The notes beneath the pieces were generated by a model that was not told where the DNA came from, searched no databases, and saw only the letters and a program-made list of their open reading frames with translations. A stretch of DNA of 45,226 nt, taken from positions 1 to 45,226 of IMG/VR virus record IMGVR_UViG_3300046538_000092. One strand, 5' to 3'. This stretch comes from a virus. Positions 4,085 to 36,389 of this stretch are shown here, in pieces (the first letter of the stretch is position 1; each line of letters opens with the position of its first letter). The translations under genes were made by a program, and so were the position numbers.

Positions 4085-7000
4085 TCAGTATCCCTTTGAG
4101 ATGTAGTCGATAGAGCGGCCCGCCTGGGCGACTCCGCCGGAATTGCGGATGAAGACGGTGAAGCCGGTAGCCGTCTTTGCCGAGACGTCCAGGTAGTCGC
4201 CAGGGGAAAGCCCTTGCGCGGTAAGGCTGACAGCAGGGGCTGCGTTGAACGGCGGCGAATAGCTGATAACCAGCCCGCCCACAGGGACTGGAAGGTCATT
4301 TCCGCTATCAATGCGATCGGGCATGTCGATCACCACCTCAAGCTTGGAAACGTCGATCCAGTGCGAAGTCAGCTGGACAGATCCACGCAACTGGAAGTCG
4401 AACAGTCGCGCGCGATAGTCACCGACGACAAACGGCTTCCACGCCGACCAGACTGGTGGACCTGTGACATCCGAGGTTCGCACCCAGAGCGACAGCGAGG
4501 CGCCGCTAGGCGGATCACCATCAATGCCGAGCAGTACATCGAAGTCCACCACGGAGTCGATGTAGGTACCGTCGTCATACAGCGCGGCCTCTACATCAGC
4601 GGTCAGTCGGCAGTCATAGACGTAGCCGAGGTCCGCCGGCGCAGCGAAGCTGTACGTCGCCGACAGCAACGAGCCGCCGTACTTATCAATTTCGCCGAGC
4701 AGCGCATCGATATCCGCCACATCATCCACGAGCCCAGCACCCGACAGCTTCAGGACCCCCTCTGCAGCGGCTGCATTGACAGCCGCCCCGGTGAAGGCAG
4801 GCGACTCGGTAATGGTCAGTACCACGTTGGACGGCAGAGTTGCCTGCGCATCTGACCAGACTTCGGTGATAGGTCCGCCGACTCCCGAGGAGTCGACCGC
4901 ACGCGCCAGGTACTTGCCCGGCAGCAACGCCACCACGGACGATGTCGAGCGCCCCGCTACCTCGATCAGCGGCAACGCGGCGTCCCAAGTGGCAGAGGTA
5001 TTGCGTGCATGACGAATGGCGATACTGCCGCCAAGCTTCACGTCCAGCTCTGGAACGGGGTCCCACGCCAGCGTTGCCACGCTGTTGATGACGTCCAGCC
5101 GCAGGCCGACTAGCGCCGTCGGTGGCGCCAGCAACGCCTGAGCGGTATAGGTCTGGATCGATGCCTCGCCGGAGAGGCCGAGCACGGACTTTGGCGTAAC
5201 ACGGACGGACCACAGGCCCGAGGATGCAGAATCGAAGTCGATGCTGGGCGTCGACACTTCACCGACATATTCCCAGTTCCCCCCGGGCCTCATGACCTCC
5301 ACCTGATAGCGCATCGCCCGCGCCGGCTGGGTCCAGCTGACCGACAGTCGCGCGGCGGCCAGACCGGTACCGGTGTCATACAGCGACTCCAGGAACGTCA
5401 GCTGCCCGACTGCATCCGGCTTAGCCAGGTTGACGATGCTGGTCGGGTTGTCGACGTCCGGTGTGCCGTACTCGACTTGGTTGAACTTGTCCCGGTCATA
5501 CGCTACGGCGCTGATCGCATAGGTGCCGTCATCGCCTTCGCTGATACCGATAACGCGAAACTTCTGCGTATCCAGTGCAGCTGTTGAGAACACCCATGGC
5601 GCCGTAGCCAGCGGTGCTGTCGCAAGCGGTGGGGATACCGTGATCGATGTCGCGCCGGCTCCTACAGTAACGGCGGCACTCGCATAGCTGCCATCAGCCA
5701 TAACCACACCGACCACGCCCGCACCAGCAAGGCCGATCGGAGCATCCAGCAGCAAGGTAGATGCTGTACTACCAGCCAGAAGCCGGCCGCCATTGCGCGC
5801 ACCGGCGCGGTTTGCGTCGGCGATGTCGATGATATCGCCAGGGACTGGAAGAGCGCCGGCAGCGCCGACAGCAAAGGTTACCGCCTCGCTTTCGGCGTAT
5901 AGCAGCCAGCGGCCCAGGCGCCGAGCCTGCCCGCGCGACGTGCAGCCTACAGCCACAACATCGCTCTGCTGGATCCGATTCCACTTGGCAATCAATTCTG
6001 GGCGCTCGACGATCTCGACCGATTGTTTGTATTGCTGAAGCGGATCATTCCAAGTAACAGCTGCAACGTTGTAGCGCTGATCCGAGGCGACAGACTGGTA
6101 GCTGAATTCACCCCCGACCACATCCGAATTGGTGAACGGAAGTCGGCTGGATCGCGGAGCATCCTGTACAGCAGTCAGGGTGCCGCCAGCCCAGAAGCAA
6201 ATCGCCCTGAACACCGACACCATGTCGTTTACGAGCTTCCAGGCGTCCTGTTGCGTGGTCAGCGCCAGGTTGCAAGTGAACCGCGGCTCCATGCCGCCGT
6301 AGCCGTTCGGGACCATCACGTCGCAATACTGCGCAATGCTGTACAGCGCGTACTTTTCAATCAGCGTTGAGTCGAGCAAGCCACCCAATCCATAACGCGT
6401 ATTGGTCAGCATGTCGTACCAGATCCAGGCTGGATTATCCGTCCAGGCGCGGACAAATGAACCGCTCCAAGATCCGGTGTAGGCGCGAGTGACTGGGTTG
6501 TAGTTGCTCGGTATCCTGACCTTCAATCCCTTGACCAAGAAGGCCATGCGCGGAATGCTGGCGAACTGCTGCGCATCAATGCTGACACCGCACAGCGCAG
6601 TATTTGGATAGCGCAGCTTTTCATCCCATATGAGCGTAAACGAATCGAAAAACGTTCGGTTCTGGATCGCAGAGCTGGTCGAATCGCCCCCCATTCGGGT
6701 TGCCCGGATATAACGCGGCAGGCCGCCAGATACCGGCAAACGCAGATAGTACGAAAACTGCGTGCGGCTCATAGTTTTGCCATTGATCAAAATGTCTTCG
6801 CACAGCTGATACCACGCGCCGCTGCCAAGCTTGGCCTCCAGGCGAAAAATCGCCGAAGAGCCGCCTGTGTCGCCGTTTTGCGTATTCTGCGAGGACAGTT
6901 GCGGAACGCCGATAGTCACGCGGACTGCATCTGCATCGGTGTCGGTGATGGCGCGCTCGATGGGAACCCATCCTCTCAGCTCGACGCCAACCGACTGCTC

Positions 7001-10107: not shown

Positions 10108-13100
10108 TTAAGCGAGTTGCCCGCCATTACGGCGTGCAGTTGCGATTTCCTGACGGCAGACAACCTTGATGGCTTCGGCCAGGCGCGCTGGATCAGGTGA
10201 AGAGCCACCACCTTCGGAGGCGTCTACCGTCACGCTGACGTTGACCGTGCTGGAGTTGGCCCCACCACGAACGCCGAGACGACCTTGTGAGTCGCGGGCC
10301 AGCGGCACGATCGCTTCCGGGCCAGCCTCACCCATCACGCCGGTTTTGCCGTTGGCCATCCCAAATGCCGTTGGCGAACTGACCACGCTGTCGGAGAACG
10401 CGCCGCCGTTGGCGAACATCTGCACGCCGCCGGACCAGGCCCCGCCCTTCGCTTGTGGGAAGTACGTCGACGAGTAGCCGGCTTGTGATGCCCCAACATT
10501 CGACGAAGTCGCACCGGCAGATCCAGAGGCCAGACCATTGCCGCTGCCGCCGAAATAGGCGCCAGCCACATTGGCAGCCAGACCGAACAGCCCGCTCAGT
10601 GCCGAGGAACTCGCCTGCCGCATTGCAATCTTTGCCATATCGGCGAGCACGGACTTGGCGAAGTCACCAAACGACAGCTTTCCGGTCAGAGCGAACTGAG
10701 AAACAGCGTCTTCCATGGAGCTGAACGCGCTGGTGAACAGACTTTTCGTCTGCCCGGCCACGTCGCGCGTCGACTCGAGGTAGTTCTCCCAGGCCGAGGA
10801 TGCGCCAGCACTCCAGCTACCTTGCGCATCGGTCATGTCGTCATAGTTGGCGACCACCGTGTTGCGCAGGTCCTGCTGGCTTTGCGCAACGGCTTTAAGC
10901 TTGGCGTTGTACTCGTCGATGCTCATGCCGCGCGATCCGTCGCCGTACTGGTTGGCCAAGTCGATGCGCTGGGCGTTCGCCTTGTCGTCGATGCCGTTCT
11001 GCTGCTCCGTCAACGATCGCTGACGATCGCCCTGCCCAAGGCCAGAGGCCGCACGCAATCCCTGCTGGCGAAGTGTCTCAACCTGTTGCTGGAGAGCGCT
11101 GGTGTACGTGCCGACCGCCAAAGTTTGCTTGCGCAGGCGCCCTTCTTCGTTGGTGGCGATGATCGACAGTTCGCTGTCGCTATCCTGCTGTGCCTTGACC
11201 ATGGCGCTACGGGCATCGGCGATCTTCTGATCGATCTGGATGACTTGAGCCGCGGTCGCGCCCTTCTTGGTCTTGGACGCTTCGAGCGCATCGATCTCCG
11301 ACTGGTAGCCCTGGGCAACTTCTTCAGCTTGCTGCTGCAACAGACTGACGCGTTGCTCGGTATAACTGGCCTGAGAGATCACCCCTGCCCGCTGCGATGC
11401 TTCGAGCTCCTTGTCCGCGTTTTTGTAGTAGGCCAGGGTTTCGGCCAATACGTTCTTCGCGTTGTTGAAGCTGGTTAGATCGACGCTGCCCGTGGCGCCT
11501 TTGGGGTCCTTGAACTTGTCGTTCAAATTCGCCATGTTCTTGGCGACCGCTGCCGGATCGAGTCGGGAGTCGTTCGGGTTGACCTTCCGAATATCATCCA
11601 GGCTTTTCTTGTAGTCCTTGATCGCCTCGGCACGCTTCTGTTCGTTGGTCAGCGAGGATTTGGTGATCGCGTCGACTTTCGACATTGCGACGACTGCGCT
11701 TTGCTGCGCCTTCGCCTGCTCGCCTTCGTACTTGGCAATGTCTGCTTCGGCGGCTTTCTGGTCCTCCAGCATGTTCAGCCGGTTACGGTAGAGGTCGATC
11801 ATCTCCTGCTTGTTTTGAAACAGGCCAACATCGCCTGACTCTGCTCGAGCGAGATCACGCTGGGCCTGCTCAATATCGGAGCCGATGTTGCTGCGACCGA
11901 TGTTTTTCAGGTTGTCAGCCGCGCGAGCGACAGCGTTGTAACCCTTCTCCCAGAAGCTCAGGTTTTCGAGGATTCTCGGCGTGCGCTCGTTGATGGCGTC
12001 TGCGTATTGCTCGGTCGCCAGCTTGACAGCACCTGCGTGGTCGCCCTGCTCTTCCAAGGCGGCGATCTGCGAATAAACCGAAGCAGTTAGATAGTGATAT
12101 TGCTCATTCAGCGCGGCAGACGCTTTTACTGGCTCGTCTGCCAGCTTGGAAAACTCGGCAACAGTCTCGCTGACGGCTTTGCCGGTAGCCTCCTGCATAG
12201 AGACTGCGGCCTTGGTGATGTCGCCAAAACTTTCGCCAGCTATCTTTCCATTGCCAGCCAGCAATGCGAGCACTTCTGCCGCTTGACCGGTTGTGCCGAC
12301 AGTCGCACTGACTTGGCGGGCAAGCTCGCCCATTTGGCCTGCACTGACACCAGCGAAATTCCCGGTCAGTACCAGTGATTTGTTGTAAGCGTCCTGCTCT
12401 TCGCTGCCCTTGTAATAGGCAACAGCCAGAGCGCCGACGGCGGCAGTGGCCAATGCAATCGGCGCAAGAATGGCAAGCAAGCCAGCAGCTGAAGCGCCAG
12501 CACCTGCACCCAGCTGAGCGACGGCACGAACGCCGCTACCCCAGTCGCCGGACGACAAAGCGTTGCCGAGCTGTACGACGTTTTCCTGCGCCTGGCGGGT
12601 ACCGAGTTTCAGTTTGTCGAACCCGGTCGCAGTTTTTTCGAGCTTCGAGTAATCCTTGTCGATTTTACTCAGCGACGAGTTGTACTGGTCCTGACTGATG
12701 CGACCAGCATCGAGGTGCTTGCCCAACTGCTCAACCTGAGTGTCCAGCTTGGACATTGCCGCCTTGGCCGGATCGATTGCGCCAAGCAGGCTGTTCAGTG
12801 CCTTCTGTTCGTCCAGGGTCGATTTGGCCAGGGCCACCTGCTGCTTATCGAGCTGCGCGGTGATCTTGGTGAACTCGGCCTCGCCATAAGCGCCGGTCTT
12901 GGTGAGTTTCGCCAGACTCTCACGCTGCTTAGCCAGTTCCTGCGTGGTGGTCGCGCCTTTCGACAGCGACTTCTCCAGCGCTTCCATCTCTTTCATCAGG
13001 CCGACGGCGGACTGCTCGGCACGATCACCAGCCTTGGTCAGCTTGTCGAGATCGGTCGCAGCGTTGGCGGCATCAGCCGAATCGACCTTGATGCCGAGTT

Positions 13101-13113
13101 CTGCAATGTTCAT
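10108..13113 (-). CDS. H: Tape measure protein
   Basis: The product has 1001 residues and is rich in alanine, lysine and glutamine. It starts NIAELGIKVDSADA, a typical N-terminus of lambda-type tape measures. Long coiled-coil stretches (about 40-190 and 380-700) surround a hydrophobic alanine-rich membrane-like patch (about 205-235). The C-terminal part holds FANGGAFSDSVVSSPTAFGMANGKTGVMGEAGPEAIVPLAR, here described by its GEAGPEAIVPL motif that is common to the family. It sets tail length and enters the host membrane on infection. The length predicts a tail slightly longer than that of lambda (H is 853 residues). Confidence 0.9.
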   Translation of the reverse strand: MNIAELGIKVDSADAANAATDLDKLTKAGDRAEQSAVGLMKEMEALEKSLSKGATTTQELAKQRESLAKLTKTGAYGEAEFTKITAQLDKQQVALAKSTLDEQKALNSLLGAIDPAKAAMSKLDTQVEQLGKHLDAGRISQDQYNSSLSKIDKDYSKLEKTATGFDKLKLGTRQAQENVVQLGNALSSGDWGSGVRAVAQLGAGAGASAAGLLAILAPIALATAAVGALAVAYYKGSEEQDAYNKSLVLTGNFAGVSAGQMGELARQVSATVGTTGQAAEVLALLAGNGKIAGESFGDITKAAVSMQEATGKAVSETVAEFSKLADEPVKASAALNEQYHYLTASVYSQIAALEEQGDHAGAVKLATEQYADAINERTPRILENLSFWEKGYNAVARAADNLKNIGRSNIGSDIEQAQRDLARAESGDVGLFQNKQEMIDLYRNRLNMLEDQKAAEADIAKYEGEQAKAQQSAVVAMSKVDAITKSSLTNEQKRAEAIKDYKKSLDDIRKVNPNDSRLDPAAVAKNMANLNDKFKDPKGATGSVDLTSFNNAKNVLAETLAYYKNADKELEASQRAGVISQASYTEQRVSLLQQQAEEVAQGYQSEIDALEASKTKKGATAAQVIQIDQKIADARSAMVKAQQDSDSELSIIATNEEGRLRKQTLAVGTYTSALQQQVETLRQQGLRAASGLGQGDRQRSLTEQQNGIDDKANAQRIDLANQYGDGSRGMSIDEYNAKLKAVAQSQQDLRNTVVANYDDMTDAQGSWSAGASSAWENYLESTRDVAGQTKSLFTSAFSSMEDAVSQFALTGKLSFGDFAKSVLADMAKIAMRQASSSALSGLFGLAANVAGAYFGGSGNGLASGSAGATSSNVGASQAGYSSTYFPQAKGGAWSGGVQMFANGGAFSDSVVSSPTAFGMANGKTGVMGEAGPEAIVPLARDSQGRLGVRGGANSSTVNVSVTVDASEGGGSSPDPARLAEAIKVVCRQEIATARRNGGQLA

Positions 13114-13140: not shown

Positions 13141-13464
13141 TCACGGGCTGTTGTCGCGGGCTTCGGCCATGACTGCGATGGCTTCCGATTCCATTACGCG
13201 GATGTCCTGAAATACACCTGGGCGATCCTTCACTGGCACGCCGACGAGTCGCATTACATTCGGCAGGACGCCGTAATCAAGGCCGGTTGCGCCGCCTGCG
13301 CCCGTACGCCACTGAGTCCCCATCGAATCCATGACGAGGAACGCCTTCCAGTTGTCCGGCCATACTTCGAAAGTCTCGTCATAGTCGTCCGGAGATAGTC
13401 CGAATAACGCCAACTGTTCGGCCGAACTTGAAGGCTCGTATAGCGCACGAGCGGCGGCGGTTAG
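13141..13464 (-). CDS. T: T part of tail chaperone GT, made by -1 frameshift
   Basis: The frame from 13464 to 13141 (107 residues, DUF1799-like: GLSPDDYDETFEVWPDNW) has no ATG and no ribosome site. Its first usable start would be a TTG at 13413. It is open without a stop from the slippery site GGGAAAC at the end of gene G, in the -1 frame. A ribosome shifting back one base on that heptamer would add LTAAARALYEPSSSAEQ and this domain to G, giving a GT fusion of about 234 residues. In lambda, gpGT made this way in a small fraction of translations helps load the tape measure with tail tube protein. Confidence 0.82.
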   Translation of the reverse strand, partial: LTAAARALYEPSSSAEQLALFGLSPDDYDETFEVWPDNWKAFLVMDSMGTQWRTGAGGATGLDYGVLPNVMRLVGVPVKDRPGVFQDIRVMESEAIAVMAEARDNSP

Positions 13465-13844
13465 TTTCCCAGTCGAGCCTTTCCAAAGGCTTCGCTGTAG
13501 GCCTTCACCACCGCGTCAGAAACACCGATGCAGCTTTTCACCAAGGCAGTGATCGACTCGTCATTGAGTTCGTCGTCGAAACCCCAAGACACGACCAAGT
13601 CCTTGATTTGATCAACGCCCTGTTCGATTTCTGCCGCGGTTACTTCGGAAAGGGAGGGCTGTGTACCCTTGAAGCGCTCGCCGATTGCCTCCGCCTTTTC
13701 CTTCCATGAGTCGAACAGCTCAGCCAGCGCCGTACGGTCGCGGTACTTGAACGTGAACGGCACCATTGCCGGCGTGCCACCAACCTGCGGAATGGAAACA
13801 TCAACGGTGAACGTCGGTTTCGGCGCGATGGAAAACTTTGCCAT
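13461..13844 (-). CDS. G: Tail assembly chaperone G
   Basis: This 127-residue protein lies between the tail tube and tape-measure genes, the place of lambda G. It has a beta-rich N-terminus (PTFTVDVSIPQVG, VPFTFKYRD) and a helical, acidic C-terminus. It coats the tape measure during tail assembly and is absent from the finished tail. The final codons CTG GGA AAC TAA contain a perfect X XXY YYZ frameshift heptamer, linking it to the T frame. Confidence 0.85.
   Translation of the reverse strand: MAKFSIAPKPTFTVDVSIPQVGGTPAMVPFTFKYRDRTALAELFDSWKEKAEAIGERFKGTQPSLSEVTAAEIEQGVDQIKDLVVSWGFDDELNDESITALVKSCIGVSDAVVKAYSEAFGKARLGN
13464..13470 (-). promoter_or_regulatory. -1 ribosomal frameshift site GGGAAAC
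   Basis: On the minus strand the heptamer GGGAAAC is in the correct phase (G GGA AAC) one codon before the G stop codon. Lambda uses GGGAAAG at the same place. No strong downstream stem was seen by eye. Confidence 0.82.
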
Positions 13845-13853
13845 GAGGATTCC

Positions 13854-14501
13854 TTACGACAGGTAGCGAGTAGGAGCGGCCTGCAGAGCCAGGGAGACGG
13901 TGCGAGTCAGCAAGTTGTTGCGAGATACCGCAGGCTGGAGCGAGAACGAGGTGTAGGCGCCGTAATACAACTTGTCGGTACCTGGCAGATTCAGGCGAGC
14001 GGCTTGCATCGACTTCGCGGAATCGGCGGCCGTAACGACGGCGACATAGGGCAGAGACGGGTCATCGGCGACAGTCAGCACCATGCTGGCGGCGGATTTG
14101 TCGGTCGGCAGCTGGCGGCCTTGCTGGTCTTCAAGGAAGACGATGTCGGCGTAATTTTGATCTCCGCCGGAGAAGGCGACATCGGTGATCTGAGGGATTT
14201 GAGCCCAGGTCAGTACCTTCGTCAGCGTGCCCGCGCCGGAGCCGGCAGGGAAGATCTGGGTGCTGGTGGTGTCGATCGCTTCCAGGGTGATCGCGGTCGC
14301 GGTCGCTGCCTTGACGCGGACCACTTTGCCGTTGAGGGGCGTCCAACCAGAAGCGATTTGCACGATGTCGCCGGCAACCAAGGTGGCGCCTACGGTGGTG
14401 CAAATGGCTTCGGATGCGTTGGAGATGGCGGAGAACGAGAGCGGAGCGGCGTAGGTAGCGGCATGCTCGAACGTCGCGCCATTCGGGAGTTTGTAGCCCA
14501 T
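13854..14501 (-). CDS. V: Major tail tube protein
   Basis: A 215-residue, beta-rich protein immediately before G, as lambda V is. Features are the N-terminal GYKLPNGATFEHA, a central TLTKVLTWAQIPQITDVAFSGGDQNYADI (described here for its ITDVAFSGGD core), and many threonine-rich strands. It polymerises into the tail tube. The ATG at 14501 follows AGAGGAAAAAACA; an in-frame start at 14540 lies in the upstream terminator and is rejected. Confidence 0.8.
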   Translation of the reverse strand: MGYKLPNGATFEHAATYAAPLSFSAISNASEAICTTVGATLVAGDIVQIASGWTPLNGKVVRVKAATATAITLEAIDTTSTQIFPAGSGAGTLTKVLTWAQIPQITDVAFSGGDQNYADIVFLEDQQGRQLPTDKSAASMVLTVADDPSLPYVAVVTAADSAKSMQAARLNLPGTDKLYYGAYTSFSLQPAVSRNNLLTRTVSLALQAAPTRYLS

Positions 14502-14572: not shown

Positions 14573-14989
14573 TCAGTTGGTGTCGGCTCGGTACAAGAAC
14601 GAAACCGGCACCGTATAGGTGGTGTCGTCTGGAATGCCGGGGCCGGGATCGACCGGCGTCATCGTCACGACGGTCAGTACGCCCTTCGTGTTCTGCTCGT
14701 ACAGCGGGAACAACACAGCGATCTGATCAGCCAGTGCGCCGACTGCACCGCGGTACTTGCCCGACGGCGTCACGATGCTGACCTGGAACACGCCGGTGTA
14801 AAGCTTATGGTCACCGCCGAGTGTGTTGCTCGCGGTGTCCGCTGGCAGCGTGAACGCCTTGAGGTATGTCTCGCCGTCTACGGGCTTGTAAATCTCGTTC
14901 TCGACGACAACTTTCAGCGGTACCGGCAGAGCTTTCGCCCAGGCGATCAGCTTTGCCTCGTAGATTGAGGCGATTGTGTTATGGGACAT
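14573..14989 (-). CDS. U: Tail terminator protein, gpU-like (DUF4128)
   Basis: This 138-residue protein has the DUF4128 / gpU-like pattern: N-terminal helix SIYEAKLIAWAK, then FQVSIVTPSGKYRGAVGALADQI and a closing TVPVSFLYR strand. It caps the tail tube and stops its growth at the head side. It is the neighbour of the tail tube gene, as in lambda. A plus-strand HNH gene lies immediately upstream of its start. Confidence 0.75.
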   Translation of the reverse strand: MSHNTIASIYEAKLIAWAKALPVPLKVVVENEIYKPVDGETYLKAFTLPADTASNTLGGDHKLYTGVFQVSIVTPSGKYRGAVGALADQIAVLFPLYEQNTKGVLTVVTMTPVDPGPGIPDDTTYTVPVSFLYRADTN

Positions 14990-15097
14990 TTTGAAGCCCT
15001 ATATGATTACCGCGTGCAGCTAGGGTCGCCCCCGAAAAGCCGTTTAATCGCCGGCCTGCTGCACTCCCCAAGTGATTACTCTGTGATGGAGAGCAGC

Positions 15098-15637
15098 ATG
15101 GATGAAGTCTGGAAACCCATTGTTGGCTACGAGGTGTATTACGAGGTTTCGAGCGCTGGCCGCGTCCGATCACTTGAGCGCCGCACGATCGACCGAATCG
15201 GCAGGCCTTTCGTTCGCTATGGCAAAATTTTGTACCTGAACACCGAGCACAACGGCTACAAGAGCGTTCGGCTTTGCGTTGAAACCAAGCACCAAATATT
15301 CAAGGTCCACCGTCTGGTTGCATACGCATTCCTATCCGCTCCAAGCAATGGCGACCAAATCAACCACATCAATGGCGCAAAGGATGACAACCGCCCAGAA
15401 AATCTGGAGTGGGTAAGCTGCTCTGAGAACGTGCTACACGCATTTGCCACTGGGCTATGCTCGACCCGTAAAGGCGCAGCAAACGCTCGATCCATTCTTT
15501 GCGACGATGATGTGCGTGCAATCCGCCAACTCAGTGCAGAAAACATGACCTGCGCGGCAATTTCTCGTAAGTACGATGTAAGCGAGGCGACGATACGAAA
15601 CATCCTCAAACGCAGAGCCTGGACTCACGTCGCCTAG
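15098..15637 (+). CDS. HNH homing endonuclease with NUMOD4
   Basis: A 179-residue free-standing endonuclease. An N-terminal NUMOD4 motif (WKPIVGYEVYYEVSSAGRVRSL region, residues 5-26) precedes an HNH core: VHRLVAYAFL, then INHINGAKDDNRPENLEWVS (catalytic His near 90, Asn98, Asn102). A C-terminal helix-turn-helix (about 135-175, ISRKYDVSEATIRNIL) should bind DNA. The ATG at 15098 is chosen because GGAG lies 6 nt upstream; ATG 15086 is in frame. It is inserted against the direction of the late operon between U and Z, and overlaps Z's end by 4 nt. Confidence 0.9.
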   Translation: MDEVWKPIVGYEVYYEVSSAGRVRSLERRTIDRIGRPFVRYGKILYLNTEHNGYKSVRLCVETKHQIFKVHRLVAYAFLSAPSNGDQINHINGAKDDNRPENLEWVSCSENVLHAFATGLCSTRKGAANARSILCDDDVRAIRQLSAENMTCAAISRKYDVSEATIRNILKRRAWTHVA

Positions 15638-24716: not shown

Positions 24717-24760
24717 GGGCTACCTAATACTTGAAATACTGGCGCGTTGTAGGTATTGGT
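24714..24760 (+). repeat. Repeat copy upstream of GNAT gene
   Basis: The stretch beginning CATGGG (the start codon region of the minus-strand gene) and containing ATACTTGAAAT (24727-24737) then CTGGCGCGTTGT matches the stretch at 25351-25400. The two copies flank the acetyltransferase gene. Confidence 0.6.
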
Positions 24761-24790
24761 CGAGATCAACTCAACGCAAGGAGCGAGACA

Positions 24791-25312
24791 GTGATCAAAA
24801 TTCGAGAGGCGACCATTGAAGATATCCACGCACTTAGTGATATCGGCATAGAGACGTATCGAGACCACTTCTCCGACATCTGGACCCCCTCAGGCATGCA
24901 GCATTTCTTGAGTGAAGACTTTTCAGTCCTAGCGCTTCAGGAATCGATAGGGGAACCCGCACATCACTGTTGGCTCATAGCCCTCGATGAAGACGACAGA
25001 GCGGTAGGGTTCTCAAAGATTAACTGGTCGAAGCCAATGCCTATTTTCGGCAAGACCGGTGCGGAGCTCCAAAAAATTTACTTCCTCAAGACCCAAGCAG
25101 GCAAAGGCTACGGGAAACAGCTTCTGCAATTCATCCGCCAACTTGCCGAAGATCGTAAAGAGCATTTCATTTGGCTCGACGTACTAAAAACCAACGCCAG
25201 TGCGAGGCGCTTCTACGAGGGCTTCGGCTTCGAAGTACTAGGCGAGATCCAATTTAGCACCGACAAGACCGAGATCGGAATGGTTGTGATGTGCTGCGAC
25301 ATTTCCCGATAG
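24791..25312 (+). CDS. GNAT family N-acetyltransferase
   Basis: A 173-residue acyltransferase. Motif A is clear: FLKTQAGKGYGKQLLQFI (acetyl-CoA pyrophosphate loop QxxGxG at about 107-112), followed by WLDVLKTNASARRFYEGFGF, motif B of the family. The GTG at 24791 has AAGGAG 7 nt upstream. It is on the plus strand among minus-strand late genes and is flanked by short direct repeats that include promoter-like sequence, so it looks like an inserted accessory gene. The substrate (small molecule, antibiotic or protein) is unknown. Confidence 0.88.
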   Translation: MIKIREATIEDIHALSDIGIETYRDHFSDIWTPSGMQHFLSEDFSVLALQESIGEPAHHCWLIALDEDDRAVGFSKINWSKPMPIFGKTGAELQKIYFLKTQAGKGYGKQLLQFIRQLAEDRKEHFIWLDVLKTNASARRFYEGFGFEVLGEIQFSTDKTEIGMVVMCCDISR

Positions 25313-35743: not shown

Positions 35744-35972
35744 GTGATCGGCTTTCACTCCGGTCCGCCAATGCGTATACGCTGGAAGCGGACGATGCCC
35801 CCTAAGTAGAACAGAGATCAAGACAGCCCTCGCCAGCGGCCTACCGATAGGGCGTTGCTTGGCCTAGCGTCGACCAATGGGGGTGAATGAATCTGAACCC
35901 CTTTCGTCCTCCTTCAGTCGAAATAAATGGCAGCCCTTGCCCACTGAATCATCACTTAAGAGGAGTCTTTTC

Positions 35973-36389
35973 ATGAAGATTTCGGAAGTAATGACGAAGG
36001 ACGTTAAAACAGCCAAGCCCAGCCACACAATCCAAGAAGCAGCCAGCCTCATGGCCAAGATCGACAGCGGCGCCATTATGATCGAGGAGCAAGAACGCCT
36101 GGTTGGTATGATCACGGACCGAGACATCGCAGTCAGAGGCGTAGCCAAAGGACTCGCGGGGGACACCCCGATCAGCAAAATAATGAGTGGTGGCGTCCGC
36201 TATTGCTTTGAGGATGAGGACGTTGAACATGTGGCAAAAAACATGGCCGATATTCAGCTCCGCCGCTTGCCTGTACTCACCCGCGACAAGCGCCTAGTTG
36301 GTGTGGTGTCCTTAGGGAACATTGCCAGCGCTAGATCGCAAACCGCTTCTGCTACTGTTCTGCGGGGAGTAGCACAAGCCCATAAATAA
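35973..36389 (+). CDS. Two-CBS-domain protein
   Basis: A 138-residue protein made of two CBS motifs (KISEVMTKDVKTAKPSHTIQEAA to GMITDRDI, and ISKIMSGGVRYCFEDEDVEHVA to GVVSLGNIA, the ends cited). CBS pairs bind adenosyl nucleotides and act as sensors; a stand-alone pair has no known catalytic activity. Ribosome site: GGAG, spacing 8. It resembles chromosomal Pseudomonas proteins rather than phage ones, and lies between two copies of a 133-bp repeat, so it seems to be acquired cargo. Confidence 0.88.
   Translation: MKISEVMTKDVKTAKPSHTIQEAASLMAKIDSGAIMIEEQERLVGMITDRDIAVRGVAKGLAGDTPISKIMSGGVRYCFEDEDVEHVAKNMADIQLRRLPVLTRDKRLVGVVSLGNIASARSQTASATVLRGVAQAHK

Follow-up and report, generated by a model that had tools for sequence, protein, structure and literature searches.

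GGGAAAC directly before the stop codon of gene G: comparative evidence for a −1 frameshift into T in a lambda-like tail-assembly module of Pseudomonas

Gene order at the G/T locus

The window, that is the whole stretch of DNA analysed, is the IMG/VR record IMGVR_UViG_3300046538_000092 (45,226 bases), in which the structural genes lie on the minus strand. Profile searches gave the gene order Phage_tail_3, G, T and TMP_2, followed by M- and L-like genes, with an overlapping G/T pair between the major tail protein and tape measure genes. The features of the locus, all on the minus strand, are as follows.

13854 to 14501, minus strand: major tail (tube) protein V (PF08813, Phage_tail_3, E 1.9e-62; phrog_584, major tail protein)
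13461 to 13844, minus strand: gene G, tail assembly chaperone of 127 amino acids (PF08748, Phage_TAC_4, E 1.8e-36)
13464 to 13470, minus strand: slippery heptamer G_GGA_AAC in the phase of G (from the sequence; invariant in 85 of 85 distinct relatives)
13461 to 13463, minus strand: TAA stop codon of G, directly after the heptamer (from the sequence; of 85 relatives, 55 have TGA and 30 have TAA here)
13434 to 13452, minus strand: possible 7-bp hairpin, 11 nt after the heptamer (unsupported as a conserved signal)
13411 to 13413, minus strand: internal TTG, the likely T start for an automatic gene caller (no ribosome site; not conserved as a start)
13141 to 13464, minus strand: predicted T extension in the −1 frame, 107 amino acids after the slip (LTAAAR...; from translation and tblastn relatives)
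13171 to 13404, minus strand: DUF1799 domain of T (PF08809, E 3.2e-26; extension residues 21-98)
10108 to 13113, minus strand: tape measure protein H (PF06791, E 5.6e-43; PF09718, E 1.6e-27)

Gene V starts with ATG at 14501, its open frame extending up to TTG 14540, and G is preceded by the ribosome site AAGGAA (anti-Shine-Dalgarno energy −6.1). Both proteins score above the curated cut-offs, with 125.5 bits for G against Phage_TAC_4 (cut-off 21.1) and 91.8 bits for T against DUF1799 (cut-off 26). PHROG 17368 covers the pair, its first half matching G and its second half T. The closest relatives in cellular genomes, presumably prophages, are found in Pseudomonas (89% in T for P. lini). A sequence-based search for solved structures of relatives of G or T found none. 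Taken jointly with the slippage reading developed below, we identify the locus with high confidence as a G/GT tail-assembly module, carried by a lambda-like siphophage or prophage of Pseudomonas.

Elsewhere in the record, a NUMOD4/HNH homing endonuclease-like gene (14981-15637, plus strand; PF07463, PF13392) lies between tail genes on the opposite strand, and a GNAT acetyltransferase (24731-25312, plus strand) and a two-CBS-domain protein (35877-36389, plus strand) are of cellular type.

Reading frames at the slippery site

Read on the minus strand, G ends with CTG GGA AAC TAA. An earlier note on this DNA had described GGGAAAC at 13464-13470, in the phase of G and with the T frame open back to it, which is exact by sequence and frames. 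The note had placed the heptamer one codon before the G stop, but TAA (13463-13461) adjoins it without a gap. From 13515 down to 13141 the −1 frame stays open, crossing GGGAAAC, and after the slip gives LTAAARALYEPSSS...; no ATG, GTG or TTG occurs in it before the TTG at 13413-13411. The predicted fusion comprises 127 + 107 = 234 amino acids with the junction N|LTAAAR, in line with the length of about 234 residues given earlier. By chance, 0.004 heptamers of the form X_XXW_WWN are expected in the 17-position overlap of G and T, a rate derived from only two in-frame occurrences in 8,788 codon positions of the 29 other gene-sized frames of the 45,226-base record.

Conservation of the heptamer in close relatives

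GGGAAAC directly precedes the G stop in all 85 distinct IMG/VR relatives, so that the alignment proposed earlier as a check returned full conservation and its refuting outcome, the absence of conservation, did not occur. All seven heptamer columns have zero entropy, while neighbouring third positions vary. The glycine of the heptamer is encoded by GGA in every relative, compared with 38 of 660 glycine codons elsewhere in the same G genes. Position 7 is always C, although a change to T would be silent for both proteins (AAC/AAT for Asn; CTA/CTG and TTA/TTG for Leu). In the T frame, the leucine codon at the slip is CTA or CTG in every relative, these being the codons that keep the G-frame stop; CTA, which is rare in the genes of the record (29 of 739 leucine codons), is used there in 30 of the 85 relatives.

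In a single sequence, the one-base offset between G and T would look identical to a sequencing or assembly error, or to a decayed gene, splitting one frame. Since all 85 relatives have the same offset at the same place, as do isolate genomes such as that of phage T1, this explanation is refuted, and we give it practically no weight. Polymerase slippage on the G/A run, yielding mixed mRNAs that encode the fusion, would produce the same protein, and some relatives do have runs of six or more A. The site itself, however, has only three G and three A, a short run for slippage by a polymerase, and codon phase is kept, with the GGG and AAA variants both retaining the X_XXY_YYZ phase. Slippage during transcription is therefore hardly credible here.

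The hairpin at 13434-13452 is no better in energy than shuffled sequence, and only 32 of 118 close relatives retain at least 6 of its 7 pairs. RNAalifold on the relatives returned no consensus structure, and mean z-scores range from −0.2 to −1.3 for stretches whose first base lies 0 to 60 nt beyond the heptamer. Downstream hairpins with z of about −2.2 are present in T1 and YMC11/02/R656. A conserved downstream hairpin or pseudoknot was thus sought at the site and not found.

Where translation of T begins

T codons 1-16 lie between the slip site and the earliest codon at which T could start. Here pN/pS is 0.30 for the T frame, compared with 1.8-2.3 for the two others. Immediately before the heptamer, the G sequence yields 4.9 when it is read in the T frame. 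T-frame purifying selection thus starts at the heptamer. A tblastn search with the T extension matched 1,096 phage records, the best-scoring ones from residue 1, and homology begins at this residue, the slip-site leucine, even in phages as distant as T1.

The absence of a proper start for T, claimed earlier, is borne out. TTG 13413 shows no Shine-Dalgarno pairing (anti-Shine-Dalgarno energy −1.7 kcal/mol, background median −2.1), and none is found at the T-start position across the relatives (mean −2.8, compared with −2.2 for background and −7.8 for G starts). A separate T, made from TTG 13413 or the matching ATG of relatives by reinitiation or from a weak ribosome site, would fit the presence of ATG in 49 and TTG in 23 of the 85 relatives at this position, and the annotation of T from such internal starts in databases. 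However, besides the lack of Shine-Dalgarno pairing, 13 of the 85 relatives have neither codon there, the T frame shows protein-level conservation over the 16 codons upstream, and the heptamer would be left unexplained. Because of the T-frame selection in codons 1-16, the homology from residue 1, the TTG without ribosome-site pairing and the relatives lacking a start codon, separate translation of T is unlikely on sequence grounds; as a full account of the locus we rate it very improbable.

We regard the comparative evidence for frameshifting as decisive, given the invariant GGGAAAC, the T-frame selection from the heptamer onwards, the homology of T from the slip-site leucine and the TTG without a ribosome site. 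The −1 shift from G into T on GGGAAAC proposed in the earlier note is supported on each of these counts, and programmed −1 frameshifting is almost certainly the correct reading, as the only one that appears to fit the sequence data.

Comparison with known systems

The arrangement resembles that of gpG and gpGT of phage lambda, with the order V-G-T-H, a −1 shift near the end of G, a T frame without a start of its own and a G_GGA_AAx site. In lambda (Levin 1993; Xu 2004, 2013, 2014, as cited in PMC5009743), whose frameshift is confirmed with a G:GT ratio of about 30:1 (PMC5009743), the heptamer is GGGAAAG and the G stop lies 15 nt further on, whereas here it is GGGAAAC with an adjacent stop. The protein families also differ: lambda G and T belong to PF06894 and PF06223, and the proteins described here to PF08748 and PF08809. 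Neither G nor T matched the lambda models up to E 1, whereas the lambda proteins do match them, and profile comparison revealed no similarity between the lambda-type T family and DUF1799.

The earlier note had drawn attention to the seventh base, which differs from that of lambda. The base is indeed C, but the contrast was overstated. AAC sites are usual in the DUF1799 family and common in lambda-T-like (PF06223) loci. Those found in genomes frequently carry AAAAAAC, the stop lying 0, 3, 21, 36 or 60 nt away; C at position 7 is therefore ordinary. The host as the reason for this C was considered and rejected, because D3-type Pseudomonas phages use GGGAAAG. The orf17/orf18 pair of Pseudomonas phage D3 shares the −1 overlap of G and T and a GGGAAAx site with the present locus, but in all 45 distinct relatives of D3 the heptamer is GGGAAAG and the stop comes 18-108 nt later, and the T and G proteins of D3 belong to PF06223 and PF16459.

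Closer in arrangement is Burkholderia phage KL1 (gp18/gp19), in which GGGAAAC immediately precedes the G stop (TGA in KL1) and was predicted as a frameshift site in 2012 (PMC3483164). The T protein of KL1 belongs to Phage_TAC_18, which is remotely similar to DUF1799 (hhalign probability 86%, E 4.6e-6). The two T domains look distantly homologous at the profile level, and on account of this match DUF1799 and the Phage_TAC_18 protein of KL1 may share the adjacent-stop arrangement by descent. The hhalign match of the DUF1799 and Phage_TAC_18 domains spans 93 columns (alignments A1 and A4: 13141-13464 of the record; 4456-4821 of locus L324). Acinetobacter phage Loki (gp12/gp13; PMC5313236) and Caulobacter phage phiCbK (gp93/94; PMC3556154) also have a heptamer directly before the G stop, which differs in being AAAAAAC, and their T proteins are Phage_TAC_18. 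GGGAAAC is also stated in the literature for Colossus and the archaeal HCTV-1.

Phage T1 (ST40/ST39) and other Tunavirinae have the same families as the present locus (PF08748/PF08809), the −1 overlap and xxxAAAC followed by a stop; in T1 the site reads AAAAAAC TAA and the two frames are annotated as separate genes. The mechanism is very probably the known lambda-type G/GT frameshift, and the locus adds a member to a well-known arrangement of long-tailed phages.

Heptamer type and stop distance in the DUF1799 family

For a wider set, DUF1799-type T matches were collected at 322 loci, of which 202 are distinct around the site. The heptamers of these 202 are GGGAAAC in 155, AAAAAAC in 40 and GGGTTTG in 1, with no canonical heptamer in 6, so that 195 of the 202 have one of the two AAC forms. 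The switch between GGG and AAA alters a residue (Gly or Lys) while the slippery form is kept, and it occurred at least 13 times on a tree that is poorly resolved. The stop follows the heptamer at 0 nt in 169 loci, at 3 nt in 25 and at 9 nt in 2.

Several individual loci depart from the common form. In a Pseudomonas subclade (L162, Pseudomonas phage PseuP_222; L177, L268, L279 and L308) the site reads GGGAAAC TCC TAA, the stop lying one codon downstream of an unchanged heptamer. In Klebsiella phage KL (Webervirus; L313) G ends near 1496 with GCA AAA GTT TAA, without a canonical heptamer, so that an A_AAA tetramer is all that a −1 shift could use. Pectobacterium phage Abuela (L318) has the G end CGT CAA AAG TAA (A_AAG, then the stop), without xxxAAAC; GGGTTTG is located 9 nt before the stop, and the slip site may differ.

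In a survey less tied to the record, covering DUF1799 matches in 399 genomes of the phylum (30 loci, including the P. lini genome used as its centre), xxxAAAC with an immediate stop was found in 24 of the 30 loci. The other six have AAAAAAC with a later stop (four), AAAAAAG (one) or no heptamer (one). A rule that AAC sites require an adjacent stop and AAG sites do not was rejected: PF06223 loci include some with AAAAAAC and stops 21-60 nt away, and some DUF1799 loci in the same survey have stops 9-105 nt away. Adjacency of the stop (0 nt in 24 of 30) is a strong tendency of the DUF1799 family, not a rule. In the KL1 subfamily of Phage_TAC_18, xxxAAAC with the stop at 0 nt is found in 37 of 40 loci, while Phage_TAC_18 loci from genomes are more variable. 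The DUF1799 tendency seems undescribed in the literature searched.

Proposed mechanism

From the frames, the heptamer, its conservation, the selection and the gene order we infer the following events, including the frequency of the slip and the roles of the proteins. Most ribosomes would stop at TAA and release the 127-residue chaperone G. In a minority, tRNA-Gly and tRNA-Asn on GGA AAC would shift back by one base to pair with GGG AAA, and these ribosomes would continue in the T frame (CUA ACC GCC...) to yield the 234-residue GT, few copies of GT being made for many of G. By analogy with lambda (PMC5009743), G may coat the tape measure protein H, and GT, the scarce product, may recruit tail tube subunits V through its T domain; the slip frequency would then set the G:GT ratio needed for tail assembly. 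Frameshifting of 6-7% was measured in a tail assembly chaperone cluster (PMC3711429). Because A_AAA_AAC is much less slippery than A_AAA_AAG in E. coli (PMC5009743), the slip rate at the present site could be low.

We speculate, as a rather doubtful extension, that in the DUF1799 family the stop directly after xxxAAAC itself belongs to the recoding signal, slow release at an A-site UAA or UGA competing with slippage in the E and P sites. As described in PMC4373837, Horsfield 1995 found for the HIV-1 site in a bacterial system that a stop as the codon after the heptamer lowered frameshifting, and that more RF2 abolished it; these results, as presented there, suggested that the next codon already occupies the A site when slippage occurs. 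If the present site behaves like that of HIV-1, release factors would share in the control through the conserved stop. Release-factor activity would then help to set the G:GT ratio and tie tail assembly to the termination capacity of the host.

Annotation and implications for the family

None of the 19 annotated Phage_TAC_4/DUF1799 phage records that we examined contains a fusion CDS. Eighteen of them give T as an independent gene with a start of its own and one gives no T, as anticipated in the earlier note, which had expected automatic annotation to miss T or start it wrongly. Joined CDS features are present in the records of HK97, P2, KL1, Loki and phiCbK, and the lambda record annotates T as a separate CDS. 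In Acidovorax phage Aval (L321), the T frame at 1522-1833 is labelled "FAD-dependent oxidoreductase", apparently wrongly.

These findings point to a systematic annotation gap, in that about a thousand DUF1799 phage records should give T as part of a G-T fusion. The family also offers a natural series of sites, with GGGAAAC or AAAAAAC and the stop at 0, 3 or more nt, in which the tuning of bacterial −1 frameshifting by the stop codon may be tested.
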